DNA from: Lachnospiraceae bacterium
Lineage (GTDB): Bacteria; Bacillota; Clostridia; Lachnospirales; Lachnospiraceae
Direction: 5' to 3'
Length of the DNA: 64,000 bases
NCBI GenBank assembly: GCA_022799355.1
Contig: JAAWOG010000002.1
Span: 41,816 to 105,815, forward strand
Positions 31,173 to 42,493 of the stretch are shown in pieces (within the stretch, counting starts at the first letter, position 1; every line of letters starts with the position of its first letter). The notes under the pieces were generated by a model. The model saw nothing but the letters and a program-made list of their open reading frames with translations, searched no databases and was not told the origin of the DNA. A program made the position numbers and the translations under genes.

Positions 31173-31211
31173 AGGGGAGAAAATCAAGTGTGTATCAGAA
31201 GGAGAGATTGT

Positions 31212-31856
31212 ATGCGCCTGCGAAATATCCCCGGTTCGAGAGAAGCGATCGGAGCCAGTGAATATGTGATTCCGGAGGAGAGCGAATGTGCCGGAAAATG
31301 GAGAGAGCTTTTTGGAAATGAAAATCCCATCCATGTGGAGATCGGTACGGGTAAGGGCAGGTTTTTAATGGAACTTGCGAAGGTGCATCCTGAGATCAGC
31401 TATGTTGGGATCGAGAAGTATTCCAGCGTTCTCCTTCGGGCAATTCAGAAGATGGAGGAGGAGCCGCTTTCTAACGTAAAGTTTATCCGAATGGAGGCGG
31501 AGCATATTCTGCGCTATTTCGCAAAAGGCGAGGTGGACCGAATCTATCTGAACTTTTCCGATCCGTGGCCGAAGGAGCGCCACGCAAAAAGACGGCTGGT
31601 CTCACGGGAATTTCTTGACCGTTACAGGGTTTTGCTGAAAGACGGGGGACACCTGGAATTTAAGACCGATAACAGGGATCTGTTTGATTTCGGCGTGGAG
31701 GAGACGGAACCTGCAAAGTGGGAGATTATGGAGATTACTTATGATCTGCACCATGATGAGAAAATGAACCGGGGCAATATTATGACGGAATATGAGGAGA
31801 GATTTTCTTCCATGGGGAATCCGATCTGTAAGTATGTGATCCGCCCCTTGCGTTAG
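31212..31856 (+). CDS. trmB: tRNA (guanine-N7)-methyltransferase TrmB, 214 aa
   Basis: This SAM-dependent enzyme makes m7G46 in tRNA. Motifs: HVEIGTGKGRFLMELAKVHPEISYVGIEKY (SAM loop), VKFIRMEAEHILRYF, and YLNFSDPWPKERHAKRRLVSREFLDRY, the hallmark PWPKxRHxKRR signature. The start is ATG 31212 after AAGGAGAG; the ORF-track start at 31188 adds a non-conserved extension. Normal length. The Mrp-like operon begins 159 bases downstream on the same strand; the gap holds a 7-bp hairpin GGCAATC/GATTGCC without a T-tract, so read-through is possible. Confidence 0.96.
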   Translation: MRLRNIPGSREAIGASEYVIPEESECAGKWRELFGNENPIHVEIGTGKGRFLMELAKVHPEISYVGIEKYSSVLLRAIQKMEEEPLSNVKFIRMEAEHILRYFAKGEVDRIYLNFSDPWPKERHAKRRLVSREFLDRYRVLLKDGGHLEFKTDNRDLFDFGVEETEPAKWEIMEITYDLHHDEKMNRGNIMTEYEERFSSMGNPICKYVIRPLR

Positions 31857-32015: not shown

Positions 32016-32474
32016 ATGTTCATATTATTAATAGTAATCTGGTTTATTTTTAACGGAAAAATTACGACGGAAATTTTTATACTGGGAATCCTTCTTAGCG
32101 CCTGCATATACCTCTTTATGTGCAGATTTATGGACTACGGTTTCAGAAAAGATATTGCATTGATAAAAAAGAGTGTTTATTTCCTGTATTATATCGGTGT
32201 ACTGATTGTGGAGATTATAAAAGCCAATGTGCAGGTTATGCATCTGGTGCTGACGGACAGAGAAGTTGCGGAGCCGGTGATCATAGGATACAAAACCCGC
32301 CTGAAAACGAATCTGGGCAGGGTGATTCTTGCAAATTCCATCACCCTTACGCCAGGCACCATCACGGTATCCCTGGAAGAGGATGAACTGGTGGTTCACT
32401 GTCTGGATAAATCGATGGCGGAGGGAATGGATGACCTTATATTTGAACGTCTGCTGGAAAAGATGGAAGCATAA
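32016..32474 (+). CDS. mrpE: Mrp-type cation/H+ antiporter subunit E, 152 aa
   Basis: This is the first gene of the ten-gene operon. It has two N-terminal hydrophobic helices (FILLIVIWFIFNGKITTEIFILGILLSACIYLFMC), then SVYFLYYIGVLIVEIIKANVQV and the conserved GYKTRLKTNLGRVILANSITLTPGTITVSLEEDELVVHCLD, which is diagnostic of MrpE/MnhE (MbhA in archaeal hydrogenases). The soluble C-terminal part is cytoplasmic. It is separated from mrpF by 39 bases. In Mrp complexes subunit E is needed for assembly and is not itself a channel. Confidence 0.93.
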   Translation: MFILLIVIWFIFNGKITTEIFILGILLSACIYLFMCRFMDYGFRKDIALIKKSVYFLYYIGVLIVEIIKANVQVMHLVLTDREVAEPVIIGYKTRLKTNLGRVILANSITLTPGTITVSLEEDELVVHCLDKSMAEGMDDLIFERLLEKMEA

Positions 32475-32513
32475 AAAGAGCGGGCGTATGGCTTTTGAGA
32501 AGTGAGGCGGAAG

Positions 32514-32885
32514 ATGGAACTGATACAACAATATTCCACAATATTTCATATTATTTTGGTGATACTGGCAGTGCTGACGATCTGTTGTCTGATCAGGGCG
32601 GTGAAGGGACCGTCCATCGCGGACAGACTGGTGGCGGTAAATATGATGGGCACCATTGTTATGTCCGTTATTGCGGTGCTTGCACTTTTGATAGATGAGG
32701 ATTATCTGGTGGATATCTGCCTGATCTATGCGATGATCAGCTTTCTCGCCGTGGTGGTGCTCACAAAGGTATATACGGGAGTATATATTGAACACAGGGC
32801 GCATCAGGAAGAAAAGAGAAAGCAGAGAGAGGCGGAAGAAGAGAAAACAGCGGAAGAAAAAGGGAAGGAATGTCATGGTGTTTGA
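32514..32885 (+). CDS. mrpF: Mrp-type antiporter subunit F, 123 aa
   Basis: This is a small three-helix membrane protein: IILVILAVLTICCLIRAVKGPSIADRLVAVNMMGTIVMSVIAVLALLIDEDYLVDICLIYAMISFLAVVVL. The GPSIADRLVAVN and DYLVDICLIYAMISFLAVVVLTKV segments are the MrpF/MnhF consensus. The C-terminus has a long charged tail (Glu/Lys-rich, about 35 residues) that is longer than in many homologues. ATG 32514 follows GAGGCGG and is preferred to the ORF-track start at 32502. Its 3' end overlaps mrpG by 11 bases. Confidence 0.92.
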   Translation: MELIQQYSTIFHIILVILAVLTICCLIRAVKGPSIADRLVAVNMMGTIVMSVIAVLALLIDEDYLVDICLIYAMISFLAVVVLTKVYTGVYIEHRAHQEEKRKQREAEEEKTAEEKGKECHGV

Positions 32886-33216
32886 GTGGATAAGGTTTAT
32901 TGCGGGAACCGGCCTGCTGGTCATAGGGGTTGCTGCGTTTCTCCTGGAAATTTTGGGCGTTTTTAAATTCCGGTATGTTTTAAACAGGATGCATGCGGCG
33001 GCTATGGGCGATACGCTGGGGATCGGCGCGGTGCTTGCCGGTCTGATGATTTTGTTTGGCTTCCGGTTCGTAACGTTTAAGCTGGCGCTTGTGCTGGTCT
33101 TTTTATGGTGCGCATCGCCTGTTTCTTCGCATCTGATATCCAGGCTGGAATGTACGATCAATGAAGATCTGGAGAAGTCCTGCGAGATAGAGACGAAGAA
33201 GAAGAGACAGGAATAA
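32875..33216 (+). CDS. mrpG: Mrp-type antiporter subunit G, 113 aa
   Basis: This is a three-helix membrane protein with LLVIGVAAFLLEILGVFKFRYVLNRMHAAAMGDTLGIGAVLAGLMI, matching the MrpG/MnhG signature (Phe-Pro/Arg-x-x-x-R-x-H-A-A segment followed by a Gly-rich helix). The C-terminus is charged (EIETKKKRQE). ATG 32875, preceded by GGAAGGA, overlaps mrpF and replaces the ORF-track start at 32788, which is inside mrpF. It corresponds to MbhC in archaeal membrane-bound hydrogenase. Confidence 0.92.
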   Translation: MVFEWIRFIAGTGLLVIGVAAFLLEILGVFKFRYVLNRMHAAAMGDTLGIGAVLAGLMILFGFRFVTFKLALVLVFLWCASPVSSHLISRLECTINEDLEKSCEIETKKKRQE

Positions 33217-33230
33217 AGGGAGGGGCAAAG

Positions 33231-33509
33231 ATGCAGATATTTCAATATATCCTGCTTGCGTTTTTGGTAATTTGCGCTGTGGCGGTAAGCTTTTCAAGAA
33301 GGCTGCTGAACTCTATTTTAATATTTATGTCCTACAGCCTGATCATGTCGATCATCTGGATATTGCTTGAGTCTCCGGATCTTGCGATTACGGAGGCGGC
33401 GGTGGGCGCCGGTGTTACGAGTGTGCTGTTTTTTGCCACATTGAAAAAAATCCATGCGATGAGGGAGGAGGACGAAGAGAGCGATGAGCAGACGGATTCC
33501 CGAGAATGA
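33231..33509 (+). CDS. DUF4040/MbhD-like antiporter subunit, 92 aa
   Basis: This is a small three-helix protein: ILLAFLVICAVAVSFSRRLLNSILIFMSYSLIMSIIWILLESPDLAITEAAVGAGVTSVLFFATLKKI. The segment SPDLAITEAAVGAGVTSVLF is the conserved core of the MbhD/DUF4040 domain, which equals part of the C-terminal half of MrpA. Its separate coding therefore resembles the archaeal Mbh order and not classical Bacillus Mrp, where it is fused into MrpA. It starts with a strong AGGGAGG and overlaps the next gene by 26 bases. Confidence 0.88.
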   Translation: MQIFQYILLAFLVICAVAVSFSRRLLNSILIFMSYSLIMSIIWILLESPDLAITEAAVGAGVTSVLFFATLKKIHAMREEDEESDEQTDSRE

Positions 33510-34455
33510 GTATGGAAAACGCCCGATGGGGGCATTCAGGCAGTGGATGGAGGGAAGCAGAGATCCTTACGCCGGCAATGTGGAAGTGAGAGCGCATGAT
33601 ATGCCGGGGGAGAGCGAGGAGCAGCTCAAAAAGTATCAGGAGGAAGTTTTCACCGTACTTAGGAAGGCCCAGGATACCGCGAATAACAATCAGTATACGC
33701 TGTTCCGCAAATTTTACAGAGTGGCGGCGCTGCTCTGCTGTCTGACGCTGACTTTGCTGCTGTTTATTACGGTGGCGTATCTGCCGCCGGTAGGAAATGC
33801 CGGCAATCCGGCGAACAACGAAGTGGCGGCAAAATATATCGAAGATGGTATGCAGGATACCGGCGCGGTGAACATAGTCACGGGTATGATCCTGGATTAT
33901 CGTGCCTTTGATACGTTCGGGGAGTCCAATGTGCTGTTTATCGCAACCTGTACCGTACTGATTCTGATGCGGAATGACAAGAAGAAGGGAAAGGGCAGTG
34001 CGGAGGAGGAAGAGCGGCGGGACAGCTTCCATGAGCCGAAAAATGACAGGATACTGCAGACGGTGGCGATGGTACTGGTTCCTTTTATCATATTGTTCGG
34101 GATTTATGTGATTTTAAACGGACATCTGTCGCCGGGGGGAGGTTTTTCCGGCGGCGCCATCATCGGCGCGGGACTGATATTATATCTGAATGCGTTTGGC
34201 TTTGAGAAGACAGAGCGGTTTTTTACGGCAAAAACCTATAAGTGGATCAGCTTTCTGGCACTCAGTTTTTACTGTATCGCAAAGAGTTATTCTTTTTATA
34301 CCGGGGCGCATCACCTTGAGAGCGGGATTCCGCTTGGTACACCGGGAGATATTTTAAGCAGCGGACTGATACTGCCGCTGAATATCTGCGTCGGACTGGT
34401 GGTGGCATGTACGATGTACGCATTCTTCGCGCTGTTCCGTAAGGGGGGATTCTAG
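33484..34455 (+). CDS. mrpB: Fused MbhE-MrpB-like antiporter subunit, 323 aa
   Basis: Two modules are visible. Residues 1-75 are hydrophilic with no known motif. Residues about 75-160 form an MbhE/MrpA-C-terminal-like part (VAAKYIEDGMQDTGAVNIVTGMILDYRAFDTFGESNVLFIATCTVLILM). Residues about 185-323 form MrpB/MnhB (IILFGIYVILNGHLSPGGGFSGGAIIGAGLILYL with the GHLSPGGGF signature). The fusion of these two, with DUF4040 separate, differs from both Bacillus Mrp and the textbook Mbh set. It is 323 residues where MrpB alone is about 140. mrpC follows after two bases. Confidence 0.9.
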   Translation: MSRRIPENEYGKRPMGAFRQWMEGSRDPYAGNVEVRAHDMPGESEEQLKKYQEEVFTVLRKAQDTANNNQYTLFRKFYRVAALLCCLTLTLLLFITVAYLPPVGNAGNPANNEVAAKYIEDGMQDTGAVNIVTGMILDYRAFDTFGESNVLFIATCTVLILMRNDKKKGKGSAEEEERRDSFHEPKNDRILQTVAMVLVPFIILFGIYVILNGHLSPGGGFSGGAIIGAGLILYLNAFGFEKTERFFTAKTYKWISFLALSFYCIAKSYSFYTGAHHLESGIPLGTPGDILSSGLILPLNICVGLVVACTMYAFFALFRKGGF

Positions 34456-34457
34456 GT

Positions 34458-34835
34458 ATGCTTGAGACAAATTTTCTGGTCAATTATGGTGAGGAGGTTG
34501 CCATTTTACTGTTTGGCATCGGGTTTGCGAACCTGCTTGTTCAGAAAAATCTGATCAAAAAGATCATAGGATTAAATATTATGGATACCGCGGTTTATCT
34601 GTTTCTGGCGGAAAAGGGATATATTGCCGGCAGGGCGGCGCCCATCGTAGTAAACGGCGTGCAGGAGGTGGAGGCCTATATCAATCCGATCCCCAGCGGG
34701 CTTGTGCTGACGGGAATCGTGGTATCCGTTTCCGTGACGGCGCTTATGCTTTCGCTTACCGTACGGCTTTATCAGCGGTATCACACGCTGGATCTGGATG
34801 AGATTTCGATGCGGCTTAGGAAGGAGGGGCTTTGA
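34458..34835 (+). CDS. mrpC: Mrp-type antiporter subunit C (NuoK-like), 125 aa
   Basis: This is a three-helix protein of the MnhC/NuoK group: EVAILLFGIGFANLLVQKNLIKKIIGLNIMDTAVYLFLAEKGYIAGRAAPI, then AYINPIPSGLVLTGIVVSVSVTALMLSLTVRLYQRY. The GLNIMDTAVYLF and NPIPSGLVLTGIVVSVSVTALMLSL segments are the usual NuoK/MrpC helices with the helix-2 and helix-3 polar residues. Its stop codon overlaps the start of the next gene (TGATG). Confidence 0.93.
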   Translation: MLETNFLVNYGEEVAILLFGIGFANLLVQKNLIKKIIGLNIMDTAVYLFLAEKGYIAGRAAPIVVNGVQEVEAYINPIPSGLVLTGIVVSVSVTALMLSLTVRLYQRYHTLDLDEISMRLRKEGL

Positions 34836-36349
34836 TGGATTTTATACAAAATGTGCCCTTTTTCTCGATCATGATCTCCATGTTTTCGGGAATTGTCTCC
34901 TCGATCCTCTCCGAGAAATGGGCAAAGCGGCTGAATACGGCGGTGATCCTTGTGGTCGGCGCAATGTCCGGCGCCCTGCTTTTATATCTTTGGCAGGCGG
35001 GGACCGGAAGTTATATTTTTATGATGGGGCATTTTCCGGCGCCCTGGGGCAATGAGATCCGGGCGGGAGTGCTGGAGGCGGGAATGGCGATGTTTTTCTG
35101 CATCGTGATGCTGCTCTCCATGACCGGCGGCAGAAAAAAGCTGTTCGATGAGGTGGAATACTCGAAGCACAATATCTACTATATTTTAGTGGATTTAATG
35201 CTCAGTTCCCTCCTTGCGCTGGTCTATACAAACGATCTGTTCACGGCGTATGTTTTTGTGGAGATCAATACGATTGCCGCCTGCGGACTGATTATGATCA
35301 GGCAGAACGGCAGGACCATAGAGGCGGCCGTCCGCTATATGATCATGAGCCTGTTGGGCTCCGGCCTTTTGCTGATGGGAATCTGTATGCTCTACGACCT
35401 GACGGGGCATTTGCTGATGAGCAATATCAAACAGGCGATGGCGGAGATTATGGCAAACGGCACATACCGGATACCGGTGCTGGTGACGGTAGGCATTATG
35501 ACCACGGGGCTTGCCATTAAGAGCGCACTGTTTCCCTGCCATGCGTGGCTGCCGGACGCTTACGGTTATTCTACGGTTTCTTCGGCGGCGATGCTCTCCT
35601 CTCTGGTATCGAAGGGGTATATCTTTCTGCTGATTAAGATATTTTACAGGGTGATAGGGCTGGATATCATTTACGACAGCCATATTATCGGCGTGCTTTT
35701 TATGTTTGGGCTTTGCGGTATGCTGTTTGGCTCATTCAGCGCGATCGGAGAGAAAGATATCCGCAGGATGATCGCCTTTTCCTCGGTGGCGCAGATCGGT
35801 TATATCTATATGGGCTTTGGTCTCGGGACGCAGGAAGGCATGGTGGCAAGCGTTTACCATATTCTTGTACATGCGGCGACAAAATCCCTGCTTTTTATCA
35901 GCGCCATCGGGCTGACGGATGTCTCCGGCGGCAGCAGGAGTTTTTTTGCACTGAACGGTTCGGGATACCGCAACAAAAGCGCGGGCATAGGCTTTGCGGT
36001 GGGTTCTCTGTCCATGGTGGGGATTCCGATCTTTTCGGGATTTGTCAGTAAACTCTTATTTGCGAAGGCGGCGATCATCAATCCTACCTGGAAGATGTTC
36101 CCCACGGTCATCGTACTGGCGATCAGTACGATCCTGAACGCGATTTATTTCCTGAAAACGGTGATCCGTATCTATACGCCGGAAGAGCCGGCGGTAATAG
36201 AAGAGAAAGGCTATTACAGTATTAGCTGGAGAAAGCAGAAACTGTACACGGTGACGATCATCCTGTTTGTGATTCTGAACCTGATCCTGGGTATGAACTC
36301 CCAGCCGATCATTCATCTGATAGAAACAGGGCTTGCAAATTTTGCATAG
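34835..36349 (+). CDS. mrpD: Mrp-type antiporter subunit D (NuoM-like), 504 aa
   Basis: This is the first of four large antiporter-like subunits, with about 14 helices. Key ion-path residues are present: a TM5 Glu in AYVFVEINTIAACGLIM, a TM7 Lys in GLAIKSALFPCHAWLPDAYGYST, and a further Lys in SLVSKGYIFLLIKI. The conserved KDIRRMIAFSSVAQIGYIYMG helix-pair follows. ATG 34835 overlaps the mrpC stop and follows AAGGAGGGG; the ORF track used the TTG at 34832. It most resembles MrpD and MbhH. Confidence 0.92.
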   Translation: MDFIQNVPFFSIMISMFSGIVSSILSEKWAKRLNTAVILVVGAMSGALLLYLWQAGTGSYIFMMGHFPAPWGNEIRAGVLEAGMAMFFCIVMLLSMTGGRKKLFDEVEYSKHNIYYILVDLMLSSLLALVYTNDLFTAYVFVEINTIAACGLIMIRQNGRTIEAAVRYMIMSLLGSGLLLMGICMLYDLTGHLLMSNIKQAMAEIMANGTYRIPVLVTVGIMTTGLAIKSALFPCHAWLPDAYGYSTVSSAAMLSSLVSKGYIFLLIKIFYRVIGLDIIYDSHIIGVLFMFGLCGMLFGSFSAIGEKDIRRMIAFSSVAQIGYIYMGFGLGTQEGMVASVYHILVHAATKSLLFISAIGLTDVSGGSRSFFALNGSGYRNKSAGIGFAVGSLSMVGIPIFSGFVSKLLFAKAAIINPTWKMFPTVIVLAISTILNAIYFLKTVIRIYTPEEPAVIEEKGYYSISWRKQKLYTVTIILFVILNLILGMNSQPIIHLIETGLANFA

Positions 36350-36366
36350 AGGAGAAACAGAGAACT

Positions 36367-37839
36367 ATGAATACATCGATAGTAATGCTGACAGCTATAT
36401 TTTTTCCCATACTTCTCGGAGCGGTCCTTCTGCTTTTGCCGGAATTTTCCGAAAGAAACCGGCTGCTTGCCGTGACGGGGGCAGGGCTTGTGATTACCGG
36501 CATCCTTGCGGTGTGCGCGCTGGGAGGCGGCGGGGAGATGCTTTTATTCAGCCTGGGGGATAAAATGGAAATCTTTTTCCGGCCGGATGATCTGGGAAGA
36601 ATTTTTGCCGTTATCGTGACGATCGTGTGGATACTGGCAGGTTTTTATTCCTTTGAATACATGAAGCATGAAAAAGAGGAGAAACGGTATTTCGGTTTTT
36701 ATCTGATGGCATTTGGTGTGCTGCTGGCATTGGATTTTGCGGGCAATATCATAACCTTCTACCTGTTTTATGAACTGATGACGCTGCTCTCCATGCCCCT
36801 TGTACTGCATTCTAAGACGAAAGAGGCAATTATGGGCGGCCTGAAATATCTGTTCTATTCTCTGTGCGGCGCCTATATGGTTCTTCTGGGCATATATTTT
36901 TTGTACAAATATGCGGATACTTTAAACTTTACGGCAGGAGGGACGCTGAACAGGGAACTGGCGGCGGGAAATGAAAAAGTGCTGCTTGTTATTGTATTTT
37001 TTATGATACTGGGTTTTGGTGTAAAAGCGGGCATGTTTCCGATGCATGCATGGCTCCCCACCGCCCATCCGGTGGCACCTGCGCCGGCAAGCGCGGTTCT
37101 TTCCGGGCTGATCGTAAAGGCGGGCGTACTTGGTGTTATCCGCACGGTATATTTTTTATTCGGGAAATCTTTTATCAAAGGCACCTGGGTACAGACGGCA
37201 TGGCTGATCCTGGTCCTGATTACGATTTTTATGGGCTCCATGCTGGCATACAGGGAAAAAGTGATGAAAAAAAGGCTTGCCTATTCCACGGTCAGCCAGG
37301 TTTCTTATATTCTGTTCGGACTTGCGCTGCTGGAACCGTCCGCAATGACGGGCGCCCTGCTTCATGTGGTATTTCACGCCTTTATCAAAGTTACCCTGTT
37401 CTTATCCGCCGGGGCAATCATTTATAAGACGGGAAAGACAAATGTAGATGAGATGACAGGAATCGGGAAGGAGATGCCGGTTACGATCTGGTGTTATACC
37501 TTCGCTTCTCTGGCACTGATTGGTATCCCGCCTGCCAGCGGCTTTATCAGTAAATGGTATCTTGCCACGGGTGCCCTTGAGTCAGGCACCGGCATTTTTA
37601 CCTGGCTCGGTCCCGTTGTCCTGCTGATATCCGCCCTGTTGACCGCGGGCTATCTGCTCCCTGTGACAATCAAAGGCTTCCTGCCCGGTGCGGATTTCGA
37701 TTATAAAAACCTGCAGAAGAAAGAGCCAAACTTTTGGATGCTGATACCACTGATTATTTTTGCGGCGCTTTCCATATTCCTCGGCATCTTTCCGAATCCG
37801 CTGACGGAGTATATAAAGGCGATTGTTTATTCTTTATAG
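36367..37839 (+). CDS. NuoM/MrpD-like antiporter subunit, second copy, 490 aa
   Basis: This is a paralogous antiporter-like protein with 13-14 helices. The Glu of FYLFYELMTLLSMPLVLH and the Lys residues of GFGVKAGMFPMHAWLPTAHPVAPAPASA and LIVKAGVLGVIRTV are kept, as is KRLAYSTVSQVSYILFGLALLEP. The HPVAPAPASA loop matches NuoM/complex-I-subunit-5 types more than MrpD. It lies 17 bases after mrpD. Conservation of Glu and Lys suggests it still conducts ions and is not a structural relic. Confidence 0.9.
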   Translation: MNTSIVMLTAIFFPILLGAVLLLLPEFSERNRLLAVTGAGLVITGILAVCALGGGGEMLLFSLGDKMEIFFRPDDLGRIFAVIVTIVWILAGFYSFEYMKHEKEEKRYFGFYLMAFGVLLALDFAGNIITFYLFYELMTLLSMPLVLHSKTKEAIMGGLKYLFYSLCGAYMVLLGIYFLYKYADTLNFTAGGTLNRELAAGNEKVLLVIVFFMILGFGVKAGMFPMHAWLPTAHPVAPAPASAVLSGLIVKAGVLGVIRTVYFLFGKSFIKGTWVQTAWLILVLITIFMGSMLAYREKVMKKRLAYSTVSQVSYILFGLALLEPSAMTGALLHVVFHAFIKVTLFLSAGAIIYKTGKTNVDEMTGIGKEMPVTIWCYTFASLALIGIPPASGFISKWYLATGALESGTGIFTWLGPVVLLISALLTAGYLLPVTIKGFLPGADFDYKNLQKKEPNFWMLIPLIIFAALSIFLGIFPNPLTEYIKAIVYSL

Positions 37840-37911
37840 AAAATACAAAACGGTTTATTTTGTCACAATACAGCCCGGCGAGGCGGACTGATTTCATTTC
37901 GGAGAATTACC

Positions 37912-39387
37912 ATGAGTGAATACTGGATTTTAGCAGCAATCCTGCTTCCGATAACCGGAGGAATAGTAACCCCGTTTATCCCTTTTAAAAACAGAAAAAT
38001 AATGATGGTCTATCTGGAAACCGTTATGGCAGTGACTTCCGTCATCGTATGGAAACTGGTCCTGAACGGAACGACGGAAGTATTCCATGTGATCCATTTT
38101 GTAGAAGAGTTGTCAATCTCTTTCAAAATAGATGGTATGTCCATGGTTTTTGCGGGACTGGTATCGCTGCTCTGGCCCCTGGCGATTCTGTATTCCTTTG
38201 AATATATGGAGAGGGAAGAGCGGGAAAAAATATTTTTCATGTTTTACAGCATCACCTACGGGATTACGCTGGGTATCGCGTTTGCGTCGGATCTTTTGTC
38301 GATGTATTTCTTCTATGAACTTCTGACGCTCTGTACGGTGCCGCTTGTGCTGCATACGCTGAAACGGGAAGCGGTCCTGGCATCGAGGAAATATCTGTAT
38401 TATTCCATCGGCGGTGCGGCTTTTGCGATGATAGGGCTGGTGGTTGTGATCATTTATGGGGTGACCTGCGAATTTCAGCCCGGCGGTGTTCTGGATATGG
38501 CGCTGATCGGGGACAGGAGAGATCTGCTGCTCTGGGTATATCTGCTGGCTTTTATGGGATTTGGAGTGAAGGCGGCGATATGGCCTGTGAGTTCCTGGCT
38601 GCCGGATGCGGGTGTGGCGCCGACGCCGGTGACAGCGCTTTTGCACGCGGTTGCGGTTGTAAAGGCCGGTGTTTTCGCAATGATCAGGCTGACCTATTAC
38701 AGCTTCGGGACTTCTTTCCTGAGGGGAACCTGGGTACAGAACGTGGTGATGGGCGTTGCGATGTTCACGATCCTATACGGCTGCAGTATGGCGCTGAAGG
38801 AGACGCATCTGAAAAGAAGGCTGGCTTATTCCACCGTCAGCAATCTTTCCTATGTGATTTTCGGGATCACAATCATGACACCTCTCGGACTGGTCGGGGC
38901 GCTGTGTCATATGGTATGCCATGCGGTGATGAAGATCAATGCGTTTTTCTGTGCGGGCGCTTTTATGCAGAATACAGGAAGAAGTTATGTGTATGAGATG
39001 GACGGCATCGGAAGAAAAATGCCGGTTGTGTTTGGCTGTTTTACGATATCCTCTCTGGGACTGATGGGCGTACCGGGACTTGCCGGTTTTATCAGCAAGT
39101 GGAATCTGGCATCGGCTGCCGTGGAGAGCGGCAATATACAGGCGTATTTCGGTATCGGCTGTCTTTTGGCTTCCGCGCTGCTGACGGCGCTCTATATGAT
39201 GAATACCGTGATCTACGCCTTTTTTCCGGGGAAGGGTTTTGATGAAAAGCCGCTGGAAGGTGTAAGAGATCCGGGATGGCGGATGTGTGTGCCGCTGTTG
39301 ACCTTTGCGGTAAGTACCGTGCTGTTGGGAATTTTTTCAGGACCGCTGATTGGGTTTTTCCGGGATATAGCGGCAGGGGTGTATTGA
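37912..39387 (+). CDS. NuoM/MrpD-like antiporter subunit, third copy, 491 aa
   Basis: This protein is visibly similar to the preceding gene (SFEYMERE, YFFYELLTLCTVPLVLH, GFGVKAAIWPVSSWLPDAGVAPTPVTALLHAVAVVKAG, KRRLAYSTVSNLSYVIFG). In place of MHAWLP it has PVSSWLP, so the His near the Lys is lost, but Glu and both Lys stay. Gene duplication followed by divergence is the likely origin. It starts after TTCGGAGAATTACC and follows the second copy by 72 bases with no terminator. Confidence 0.9.
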   Translation: MSEYWILAAILLPITGGIVTPFIPFKNRKIMMVYLETVMAVTSVIVWKLVLNGTTEVFHVIHFVEELSISFKIDGMSMVFAGLVSLLWPLAILYSFEYMEREEREKIFFMFYSITYGITLGIAFASDLLSMYFFYELLTLCTVPLVLHTLKREAVLASRKYLYYSIGGAAFAMIGLVVVIIYGVTCEFQPGGVLDMALIGDRRDLLLWVYLLAFMGFGVKAAIWPVSSWLPDAGVAPTPVTALLHAVAVVKAGVFAMIRLTYYSFGTSFLRGTWVQNVVMGVAMFTILYGCSMALKETHLKRRLAYSTVSNLSYVIFGITIMTPLGLVGALCHMVCHAVMKINAFFCAGAFMQNTGRSYVYEMDGIGRKMPVVFGCFTISSLGLMGVPGLAGFISKWNLASAAVESGNIQAYFGIGCLLASALLTALYMMNTVIYAFFPGKGFDEKPLEGVRDPGWRMCVPLLTFAVSTVLLGIFSGPLIGFFRDIAAGVY

Positions 39388-39398
39388 GGGAGGTATCC

Positions 39399-41573
39399 AT
39401 GGTCAGTTTTTATGTGTGCGGTCTTGTTTTTATGCCGATGGCGGGGGCGTTGTTGTCCTATGGGACAGGAAAAAAAGATAAGAAAGCCAGGGATTATTTT
39501 GTCGCCGGGGTGACGGTACTGGAATTTGTGCTGGCGGTACTTTTGCTGTTTCGGTATACATCGGGCAGTATGACAGAGAATATGACAAAGCTGTCAGAAA
39601 TATGCGGTATGGGGCTGAAATTTTCGGTAGATGGGTTTCGGGCTGTGTATGTCTGTATTGCGGCCTTTATGTGGATGGGAACCGCCCTGTTTTCCGTGGA
39701 ATACTTTGGACATTACAGGAACAGAAACCGCTATTATCTGTTTCAGCTTATTACGCTGGGGGCGACGGAGGCGATCTTTTTGTCGGCTGATCTGTATACG
39801 ACGTTTGTATTTTTTGAGATCATGTCCTTTGCCTCTTATGTCTGGGTAGCCCAGGATGAGAGGACACAGTCACTGCGGGCGGCAGGTACGTATCTGGCAG
39901 TGGCAGTGATCGGCGGACTGGTGATGCTGATGGGACTGTTTCTTTTGTATCATCAGGCGGGAACGTTGGAAATCGATAAGCTTTATGAGGCGTGCAGAGG
40001 GAAGGACGTCTATGCGGCGGCGCTCTGTATGCTGGTGGGATTTGGCGCCAAGGCGGGGATGTTTCCGCTGCATATCTGGCTGCCGAAGGCTCATCCGGTG
40101 GCGCCTGCGCCGGCAAGCGCTCTTTTGTCCGGTATTTTGACGAAAACCGGAATTTTCGGCATACTTGTGATCAGTTGTAAGATCTTCCTGCACAACGGGA
40201 TCTGGGGTACTTTTATTCTGATGCTGGGTGTGCTGACGATGACGGCAGGTGCGGTATTGGCGCTGTTTTCCATAGACTTTAAGAGAACCCTTGCCTGTTC
40301 CTCGGTTTCCCAGATCGGTTTTATCTTGGTAGGGATCGGAATGCAGGGACTGCTTGGAGAGGAAAACCTGCTGGCAGTGCGGGGAAGTTTCCTGCATATG
40401 GTGAATCATTCTCTGTTTAAACTGGTATTGTTTATGACGGCGGGTGTTATTTATATGAATCTGCATAAACTGGATTTAAACGAGATCAGAGGGTTTGGAC
40501 GGAAAAAACCGCTGCTTGCTTTTATCTATCTGATGGGAGCGCTGGGAATCGGCGGTATGCCTCTCTGGAGCGGCTATATCAGCAAGACGCTGCTGCATGA
40601 GAGCATTGTGGAATATACCGAAATACTGGCGGAACATCCGGGGAGCGCCGTTTTTTTCTCCGCAGGCGGCATGAAAGCGATAGAATGGGCGTTTCTGATC
40701 AGCGGCGGTTTGACCGTGGCGTATATGACGAAACTGTTTGTGGCGGTTTTTGTGGAACGAAACGCAGATGCCGCGGTGCAGGAGAGGTATGATGCACGGA
40801 AGGTTTATATGAATCCGCTCAGCGCGGCGGTTTTGACGGCGGCAAGTATTCTGTTTCCGGTAATGGGGCTGTTTTCCGGACTTACGATGGATAGACTGGC
40901 GGATCTGGGACAGGGCTTTATGGGGGCTGCGGAAGCCGGCGGAAAAGTAGCATACTTTAGTTTTGGAAACTTAAAAGGAGGCGCAACGTCCATTTTGATC
41001 GGGGCACTGCTCTATGTTGTGGTGGGACGGGGCTGGATGTTAAAACGGGCGGAACCTGAAAAAGATAAGGCCGGCAGTATATATCTGAACAGATGGCCGA
41101 AGCTTCTGGATCTGGAGGATTATCTTTACAGGCCTATCCTGCTGTTGATTCTGCCGACGGTCTGCGGCTGTATCTGCGGTATTTTAGATAAAATAACAAA
41201 TGTTACATCTAAATTTATGATTATTACGGGCGGAGCCGCCGCAGGATTTTTGAATACGATAACGGATGCCATGGTAGTTATTTTGCGAAAGACCATTTAC
41301 AGGGACCATACAAAGAAGGGCGAGCTGAAAGAAGGAAACGGGCTGACCTATGTTCTGGGCAGTGTGATAAATGCCATATGCGGACTTTTAAACCATACGT
41401 TGTGGCGCGGCAATCCGAGAGAGATCGATTACAGGCATAAACTGGCACTGGAGTACTGGAGCCGCAGAGAGACCATTTATATGATTACCAGGAGCCTTTC
41501 CTATGGACTGCTTTTGTTTTCCGTCGGGCTTTGTGCGACACTGATTTATTTGCTGGTGGGAACTCTGAAATAA
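39399..41573 (+). CDS. NuoL/MrpA-N-like antiporter subunit with C-terminal extension, 724 aa
   Basis: This is the longest antiporter-like subunit. It opens with a hydrophobic stretch and keeps Glu in FVFFEIMSFASYVW, Lys in LVGFGAKAGMFPLHIWLPKAHPVAPAPASA, and Lys in SGILTKTGIFGIL, then KRTLACSSVSQIGFILVGIGMQGL. The last 200 residues form an extension with extra helices (LPTVCGCICGILDKI; SYGLLLFSVGLCATLIYLLVG), reminiscent of NuoL/MrpA C-terminal parts. The ORF-track start at 39276 lies in the previous gene; ATG 39399 after GGGAGG is preferred. It ends the antiporter operon; a lipid kinase gene follows 35 bases later. Confidence 0.9.
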   Translation: MVSFYVCGLVFMPMAGALLSYGTGKKDKKARDYFVAGVTVLEFVLAVLLLFRYTSGSMTENMTKLSEICGMGLKFSVDGFRAVYVCIAAFMWMGTALFSVEYFGHYRNRNRYYLFQLITLGATEAIFLSADLYTTFVFFEIMSFASYVWVAQDERTQSLRAAGTYLAVAVIGGLVMLMGLFLLYHQAGTLEIDKLYEACRGKDVYAAALCMLVGFGAKAGMFPLHIWLPKAHPVAPAPASALLSGILTKTGIFGILVISCKIFLHNGIWGTFILMLGVLTMTAGAVLALFSIDFKRTLACSSVSQIGFILVGIGMQGLLGEENLLAVRGSFLHMVNHSLFKLVLFMTAGVIYMNLHKLDLNEIRGFGRKKPLLAFIYLMGALGIGGMPLWSGYISKTLLHESIVEYTEILAEHPGSAVFFSAGGMKAIEWAFLISGGLTVAYMTKLFVAVFVERNADAAVQERYDARKVYMNPLSAAVLTAASILFPVMGLFSGLTMDRLADLGQGFMGAAEAGGKVAYFSFGNLKGGATSILIGALLYVVVGRGWMLKRAEPEKDKAGSIYLNRWPKLLDLEDYLYRPILLLILPTVCGCICGILDKITNVTSKFMIITGGAAAGFLNTITDAMVVILRKTIYRDHTKKGELKEGNGLTYVLGSVINAICGLLNHTLWRGNPREIDYRHKLALEYWSRRETIYMITRSLSYGLLLFSVGLCATLIYLLVGTLK

Positions 41574-41608: not shown

Positions 41609-42493
41609 ATGATGAAAAAACTTTTGTTGATCTATAATCCCGTCTCCGGCATGACGAAGACAAGGCTGAGCCTGCAAAAGGCGGTGGAGTTTTATGACAG
41701 TCAGGATTATCTCGTCACGGTCTGCCTTGTGAAAAGGCTGGAGGATTTTGATAAAGAGATAGATTTTAAATCTTTTGATTTGATTGTATGCAGCGGAGGG
41801 GACGGGACGCTGAATATTACGGTCTCTTTTCTACTGCGGAAAAATCTGCCCGCCCAGATTGCCTATATTCCTTCCGGCTCCACCAACGATTTTGCGTACA
41901 GCCTGGGGCTTTCGGGGGATATCGATGCATTGCTGCAAAATACCGTAAGCGGGGAGCCCAGGTGGATCGATGTGGGGCGTTTTAATGCATCCCGGTATTT
42001 TCTGTATGTGGCGGCGTTTGGTATTTTTACCAAGGTTTCCTATACCACATCCCAGAAAGTAAAGAATCTGTTGGGACATGCCGCCTATATTCTGGAAGGG
42101 ATTAAAAGCATTGCCGATTTAAAAAGCTATCATATGACAGCGCAGCTTGAGGGGGAAGAGGTAGAAGGCGACTATATTCTCGGTATGGTCACAAATTCTT
42201 TATCCATCGGCGGATTTAAAAATATTCTTCCGTCGGATACTGCCCTGGATGACGGGCTCTTTGAGATAGTGCTTGTGAAGATGCCGAAAAGCCTCGTCGC
42301 ATTGAACGAGATCGTTCTTTCGCTGCTGAGCGATAAACCGGAAGATAACCAGCATATTTTTTACAGAAAGGCTTCCGGGGTGATACTGCGCTCGGAAGAG
42401 AAAATATCCTGGGCGCTGGACGGGGAGTTCGGAGGCGAGGAGGATGTTGTGCGGATCGAGAACAGGAGAAAGCTGCTCTCGATCGTATGCTGA
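41609..42493 (+). CDS. Diacylglycerol/lipid kinase family protein (YegS/BmrU-like), 294 aa
   Basis: This is a cytosolic or membrane-associated lipid kinase of the DAGK catalytic domain family. It has LLIYNPVSGMTKTRLSLQ at the start and CSGGDGTLNITVSFLL (GGDGT nucleotide loop) about residue 65, with YIPSGSTNDFAYSLGL after it. The later sequence KISWALDGEFGGEEDVVRIENRRKLLSIVC is the usual C-terminal sheet with DGE. It follows the antiporter operon by 35 bases and may share its transcript. The lipid substrate is not known by eye. Confidence 0.9.
   Translation: MMKKLLLIYNPVSGMTKTRLSLQKAVEFYDSQDYLVTVCLVKRLEDFDKEIDFKSFDLIVCSGGDGTLNITVSFLLRKNLPAQIAYIPSGSTNDFAYSLGLSGDIDALLQNTVSGEPRWIDVGRFNASRYFLYVAAFGIFTKVSYTTSQKVKNLLGHAAYILEGIKSIADLKSYHMTAQLEGEEVEGDYILGMVTNSLSIGGFKNILPSDTALDDGLFEIVLVKMPKSLVALNEIVLSLLSDKPEDNQHIFYRKASGVILRSEEKISWALDGEFGGEEDVVRIENRRKLLSIVC

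Follow-up and report, generated by a model that had tools for sequence, protein, structure and literature searches.

The ten genes that we analyse here probably encode a monovalent cation/H+ antiporter of the Mrp (CPA3) type that is group-3-like and stands alone, without a redox module; we draw this reading from sequence and hold it with good confidence. They form an operon within a 64,000-nucleotide stretch of Lachnospiraceae DNA (below, the window) and include four antiporter-like subunits, D1 to D4, in a row. Gut Lachnospiraceae commonly have this operon, which appears uncharacterised; many anaerobic gut bacteria carry an Mrp-type operon of this kind, with four antiporter-like subunits in place of the usual two. 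Our search of the literature outside subscription journals turned up neither a four-subunit Mrp nor an account of this Lachnospiraceae operon. How many ions are moved per antiporter-like subunit, and how the subunits are coupled to one another, is a central question for both complex I and Mrp. Here closely related redox-free complexes exist whose modules number two, three, four and perhaps more, which makes the dependence of stoichiometry on module number directly measurable.

Gene content and ion-path residues

All ten genes lie on the + strand between 32016 and 41573 in the order mrpE-F-G-mbhD-(mbhE/mrpB)-C-D1-D2-D3-D4, and neighbouring genes overlap or are separated by gaps of 2-72 nt. The small subunits come first: mrpE/mbhA (32016..32474; MNHE, PF01899, 8e-33), mrpF/mbhB (32502..32885; MrpF_PhaF, PF04066, 7e-13) and mrpG/mbhC (32875..33216; PhaG_MnhG, PF03334, 2.5e-20), whose ATG lies within the 3' end of mrpF. 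These are followed by mbhD (33231..33509; MbhD, PF13244, 4e-20), a DUF4040 protein equivalent to the first part of the MrpA C-terminal domain, and by an mbhE-mrpB fusion (33484..34455) in which a single protein matches both MbhE and MnhB (PF20501 and PF04039) and for which the start codon is uncertain, 33526 being possible. Such a fusion is not unusual, because subunit E of MBS (MbsE) is an MbhE-MrpB fusion too (PMC8415708), and this same subunit is the top solved-structure match of our protein. Next comes mrpC/mbhG (34458..34835; Oxidored_q2, PF00420, 3e-20), and the rest of the operon is taken up by four Proton_antipo_M (PF00361) proteins: D1, which is MrpD/MbhH-like (34832..36349; 2.6e-47); D2, a duplicated copy from which the helix-VIII His motif has gone (36367..37839; 6.6e-59); D3, which keeps an MrpA/NuoL-type helix-VIII motif (37912..39387; 4.8e-54); and the terminal D4, with a C-terminal extension of about 200 residues (39399..41573; 1.8e-55). 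All ten proteins score well over the Pfam cut-offs, and NCBIfam is concordant at subunit level. A first-pass annotation of the window had the gene order and coordinates right, apart from minor start-codon changes (mrpG refined to 32875, and D4 starting at 39399, not 39276). Rather than ending at mrpD, a layout which that annotation had set against its own interpretation, the operon continues beyond D1 with D2, D3 and D4. In the window, trmB (Methyltransf_4) is found upstream of the operon at 31188-31856, and a gene for a YegS-like lipid kinase (DAGK_cat) lies directly downstream on the same strand at 41609-42493.

Group 3 Mrp systems are those without mrpA and sometimes with several mrpD genes (PMC8415708), although this definition and that of PMC5703873 differ somewhat. 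Here, homologues of MrpB, C, D, E, F and G are all found within one operon by Pfam and NCBIfam, there is no mrpA gene, and several genes are of mrpD type. D1-D4 are the only PF00361 proteins in the genome, and none of them is MrpA-like as a whole. The fusion of the N-terminal antiporter domain of a single MrpA to its C-terminal domain that marks groups 1 and 2 is not found: MbhD and MbhE are encoded by separate genes, and D4 is without them.

The residues that a group 3 Mrp should carry along its Na+ path, together with the TM5 Glu and TM7 Lys, are present as well. For the Na+ path we took the A. flavithermus Mrp structure (PMC7419157) as our reference. Among 61 aligned operons, the Pro of the essential MrpE loop (P113) and the Na+-entry Asp of MrpF (D41, equivalent to D35 of A. 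flavithermus MrpF) are invariant, as is the helix-breaking Pro of MrpG (P82) in 45 aligned rows. MbhD E55, which aligns with MBH E69 in a phmmer alignment to 6cfw_D, is also invariant, and so are D143 and E147 of MbhE (the DTxGE motif) and N40 and D43 of MrpC. The latter two agree with what has been reported of the double cavity in MBH; set side by side, MrpC N40/D43/Y47 and MBH N34/D37/H41 have the same spacing and differ in the last residue. Since the MrpC double cavity reads N/D/Y instead of His, ion specificity may differ. On the H+ side, the TM5 Glu, TM7 Lys, TM8 Lys and TM12 Lys are E144/K230/K261/K407 in D1, E136/K220/K251/K396 in both D2 and D3, and E140/K218/K249/K396 in D4 (counted from the ATG at 39399). 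All are invariant in the 61 aligned operons with the sole exception of the TM8 Lys of D3, which is Asn in 3 of 61. It had been noted earlier that all four subunits keep the TM5 Glu and the TM7/8 Lys; this is borne out and extends to the TM12 Lys.

Conservation and origin of the fourth subunit

A scan of our genome collection with a D3 profile confirmed at least 573 relatives, and we examined the best 80 loci of these. These best 80 carry the ten-gene operon and come nearly all from Lachnospiraceae records; 11 of them are incomplete, each cut at a contig end. The conservation of the ten genes is far beyond chance, because they occur in identical order in every locus that is not cut by a contig end (69 of 69). 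The same architecture also recurs beyond the family, at the level of order, class and phylum (L039, L040, L173, L175, L235 and L236), with two further candidates cut off at a contig end (L174 and L042). The distribution is patchy, and the operon is absent from many sampled genomes of the same family. Across 66 loci no neighbouring gene recurs often enough to hint at function; trmB is upstream in 21 of the 66, and there are other small groups.

We placed the four large subunits in maximum-likelihood trees built by quick searches with SH-aLRT support only, in which the deep Mrp/Nuo/Hyf branches are unsure. D1 clusters with MbhH, MbxH and the first subunits of other Mrp operons. D4 forms a separate lineage that is neither MrpA nor NuoL, and none of the extra subunits is placed in a non-pumping family, a placement that the first-pass annotation had named as refuting its interpretation. 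D2 and D3 of the four-subunit operons are sister clades nested among the D2s of three-subunit operons (support 97-99.5). Widespread in Clostridia is a three-subunit operon, E-F-G-MbhD-MbhE-B-C-D1-D2-D4, in which MbhE and MrpB are not fused. Because the D2 and D3 clades nest within the three-subunit D2s, the trees indicate that D3 arose through duplication of D2; by the same phylogeny, the three-subunit form (D1-D2-D4) is ancestral and the four-subunit form gained D3. Other Bacillota (L184, L185, L237 and L243) have an additional subunit from a different clade than D3. A single origin of all fourth subunits is rejected by an AU test at p 0.002, a value that is indicative since the group was defined with the tree already in view. 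The sequences thus point to a fourth module gained at least twice, because the extra Bacillota subunit belongs to another clade and its union with D3 is rejected.

MrpA and NuoL share a His motif in helix VIII (NuoL H254, MrpA H221), which has been studied as a mark setting these proteins apart from MrpD, NuoM and NuoN (PMC4938563). In D3 this helix reads LLHAVAVVK (H245), with the motif His in 61 of 61 aligned rows. In four-subunit operons the helix-VIII His is on D3 only (69 of 69 loci with all four subunits); D2 is without it and has the shorter MrpD/NuoM-like form, and D4 is also without the motif. In most three-subunit operons, LLHAVAVVK is found on D2 alone. Our regular expression for helix VIII does not recognise MrpA variants in which Tyr precedes Leu-His (Listeria, Vibrio); these we read off the alignment. 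That the MrpA/NuoL signature stays with one copy after duplication makes its role testable. Three other three-subunit clusters (L190, L191 and L192) have two D4-like subunits and the helix-VIII His motif on none.

The AlphaFold2 model of D4 has a mean pLDDT of 86.8, and its best solved folds are MrpA and NuoL, which match nearly full length, C-terminal extension included, though residues 610-642 are of low confidence. We also considered a D4 brace lengthened in step with the extra subunit; this is not seen, the C-terminal part being not consistently longer in four- than in three-subunit operons, with overlapping lengths. Because D3 holds the His motif and D4 the MrpA/NuoL-like extension, the features of MrpA are distributed here over several proteins, namely MbhD, MbhE, D3 and D4.

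Alternatives to a redox-free antiporter

The gene order shared with MbhA-H raises the question of whether the operon encodes instead the membrane arm of a hydrogenase or of a ferredoxin:NAD oxidoreductase-like respiratory complex, with the catalytic arm encoded elsewhere, as the first-pass annotation had offered as one option. The top NCBIfam match of D4, hydrogenase-4 subunit B, goes the same way, as do order-level relatives (L046-L049) with NiFe-type redox subunits beside other antiporter-like subunits. The genome itself argues strongly against it: a genome-wide search for hydrogenase- and Nuo-type subunits, akin to a check that had been proposed, finds no NADHdh (NuoH/MbhM), NiFe large subunit, Oxidored_q6 (NuoB/MbhJ) or Complex1_49kDa (NuoD) protein in an assembly that is 98% complete, while the redox-subunit models do give matches in control genomes. 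With PF01058, PF00374, PF00346 and PF00146 absent genome-wide, the operon belongs neither to an MBH/MBS-type system nor to complex I. NADHdh is likewise absent in 28 of 33 genomes that have the ten-gene operon or its three-subunit relative, and no redox neighbour recurs across the 66 loci. We drop the respiratory-arm option because of these absences, in this genome and in its relatives, and regard it as very unlikely. The earlier description of three proteins standing in place of hydrogenase subunits is right as a statement of gene order; as a statement of replacement it fails, since the D2/D3 and D4 lineages occur in stand-alone three-subunit Mrp operons.

Two other readings keep the operon free of a redox arm, and we consider both of them improbable, to a similar degree. 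D2 and D3 could be interchangeable paralogues that never meet in the same complex, giving two alternative antiporters of three antiporter-like subunits each. Their sisterhood after duplication, the three-subunit make-up of the ancestral complexes and a D4 extension that has not lengthened are all consistent with this; that all 69 uncut loci retain both, and that the two differ consistently in helix VIII, argues for distinct places. The complex could also carry a different ion (K+ or Ca2+), or serve coupled uptake, instead of being a Na+/H+ exchanger. The N/D/Y double cavity of MrpC would fit such a role, and the characterised Mrp of a hot-spring bacterium transports Ca2+ (PMC5703873). Against this, Asp replaces His at the same site in MBH, a Na+ pump (PMC7419157), and the remaining proposed Na+-path residues are all retained. 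The suggestion of a large cation/H+ antiporter with four ion paths stands as the best reading, given the Na+- and H+-path residues kept, the phylogeny and the continuation of the operon beyond mrpD; the activity itself is a prediction. Several points count against this redox-free antiporter: Asn for the TM8 Lys of D3 in some operons, the unscaled D4 C-terminus, the missing MrpC His, and the P. furiosus stand-alone Mrp without MrpA, for which the energy input is unclear (PMC8415708).

Proposed mechanism and comparison with known systems

How might four modules work together? E, F, G, MbhD, MbhE/B and C hold the proposed Mrp/MBH Na+-path residues, and each of D1-D4 holds a full Glu/Lys/Lys/Lys set. 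Going by Mrp structures and the gene order, D1 would adjoin the Na+ module, with D2, D3 and D4 next in line, and the D4 extension would brace the row of subunits as in MrpA/NuoL. A cation passing MbhD E55 and MrpC may then toggle E144 of D1, and the charge state could be relayed through contacts from TM12 Lys to TM5 Glu, from D1 to D2 to D3 to D4, with several H+ moved per cation. The phylogeny shows that the fourth module is the D2 duplicate, D3 having kept the MrpA/NuoL-type helix VIII and D2 having turned NuoM/MrpD-like. By analogy, the complex is most likely a cation/H+ antiporter to which a further H+ module has been added, in parallel with '2M' complex I. More tentatively, we suggest that all of D1-D4 may stand in line in one complex, as a redox-free counterpart of 2M complex I with a higher H+/cation ratio than other Mrp antiporters, which we see as a real possibility rather than the expected outcome. 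If so, ion stoichiometry in the superfamily would evolve via module addition.

Physiologically, the complex might exchange one gradient, H+ or Na+, for the other; the host is a fermenter equipped with Rnf and with an ATP synthase whose c subunit is of the Na+ type. Rnf is present in the source genome and in 30 of 33 genomes with the ten-gene operon or its three-subunit relative. The c subunit of the F-type ATP synthase in the source genome (L205, G000:C101:10555-10743) has GPGIGQG...VAETT, with Q in GPGIGQG and ET in VAETT, an established Na+-binding signature. A role in exchange between the two gradients is plausible because the genome holds both.

Marked differences among the Mrp clusters of anaerobes have been noted, and cyanobacterial Mrp systems with two mrpD genes have been described (PMC5703873). 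The operon is like known group 3 systems (P. furiosus mrpEFGBB'CD; Aphanothece mrpCD1D2EFGAB) in E-F-G, the split MrpA C-terminal part, B, C, D-type subunits and the lack of a hydrogenase; unlike them it has four antiporter-like subunits in a row, an MrpA/NuoL-like extension on the last, and a duplicated D2. Also similar are the Mrp-like operons of Peptoclostridium acidaminophilum and the haloarchaeal Halomontanus, with three antiporter-like subunits, the same small-subunit order, the same D1 and D2 lineages, and no D3. Peptoclostridium acidaminophilum shares the D4 lineage and has MbhE and MrpB separate, whereas the third subunit of Halomontanus is a long branch of unsure placement. MBH/MBS of Pyrococcus furiosus has the same MbhA-H gene order; in contrast to it, our operon is without a hydrogenase or sulfur-reductase module and has three antiporter-like subunits beyond D1. 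In 2M complex I a fourth antiporter-like subunit has likewise been added and is proposed to raise ion stoichiometry, the form with a second NuoM being described in PMC7117926 (citing Chadwick 2018) as pumping an extra proton; that complex is redox-driven, whereas the operon has no redox arm. Hydrogenase-4 has a split similar to that of D3 and D4: HyfD bears the His-type helix VIII, and the long C-terminus belongs to HyfB (672 aa). It differs in having catalytic subunits, and in the trees HyfD and HyfB are placed apart from D3 and D4.

Other arrays of antiporter-like subunits turned up in the genome collection. A D2-type match in L226/L243 (G647:C252:31699-33120) has four in-frame stop codons and may be a pseudogene or an assembly error. 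On the minus strand of L241 (G638:C9), five antiporter-like subunits, D4-D2-D2-D2-D4 by best profile, stand without E/F/G/B/C genes and adjoin a separate complete Mrp cluster. In one family (L242, L244 and L247), the helix-VIII His motif is not found by the pattern used in L244 and L247, and all three Mrp clusters have C-D1 before E-F-G and between five and seven consecutive antiporter-like subunits.
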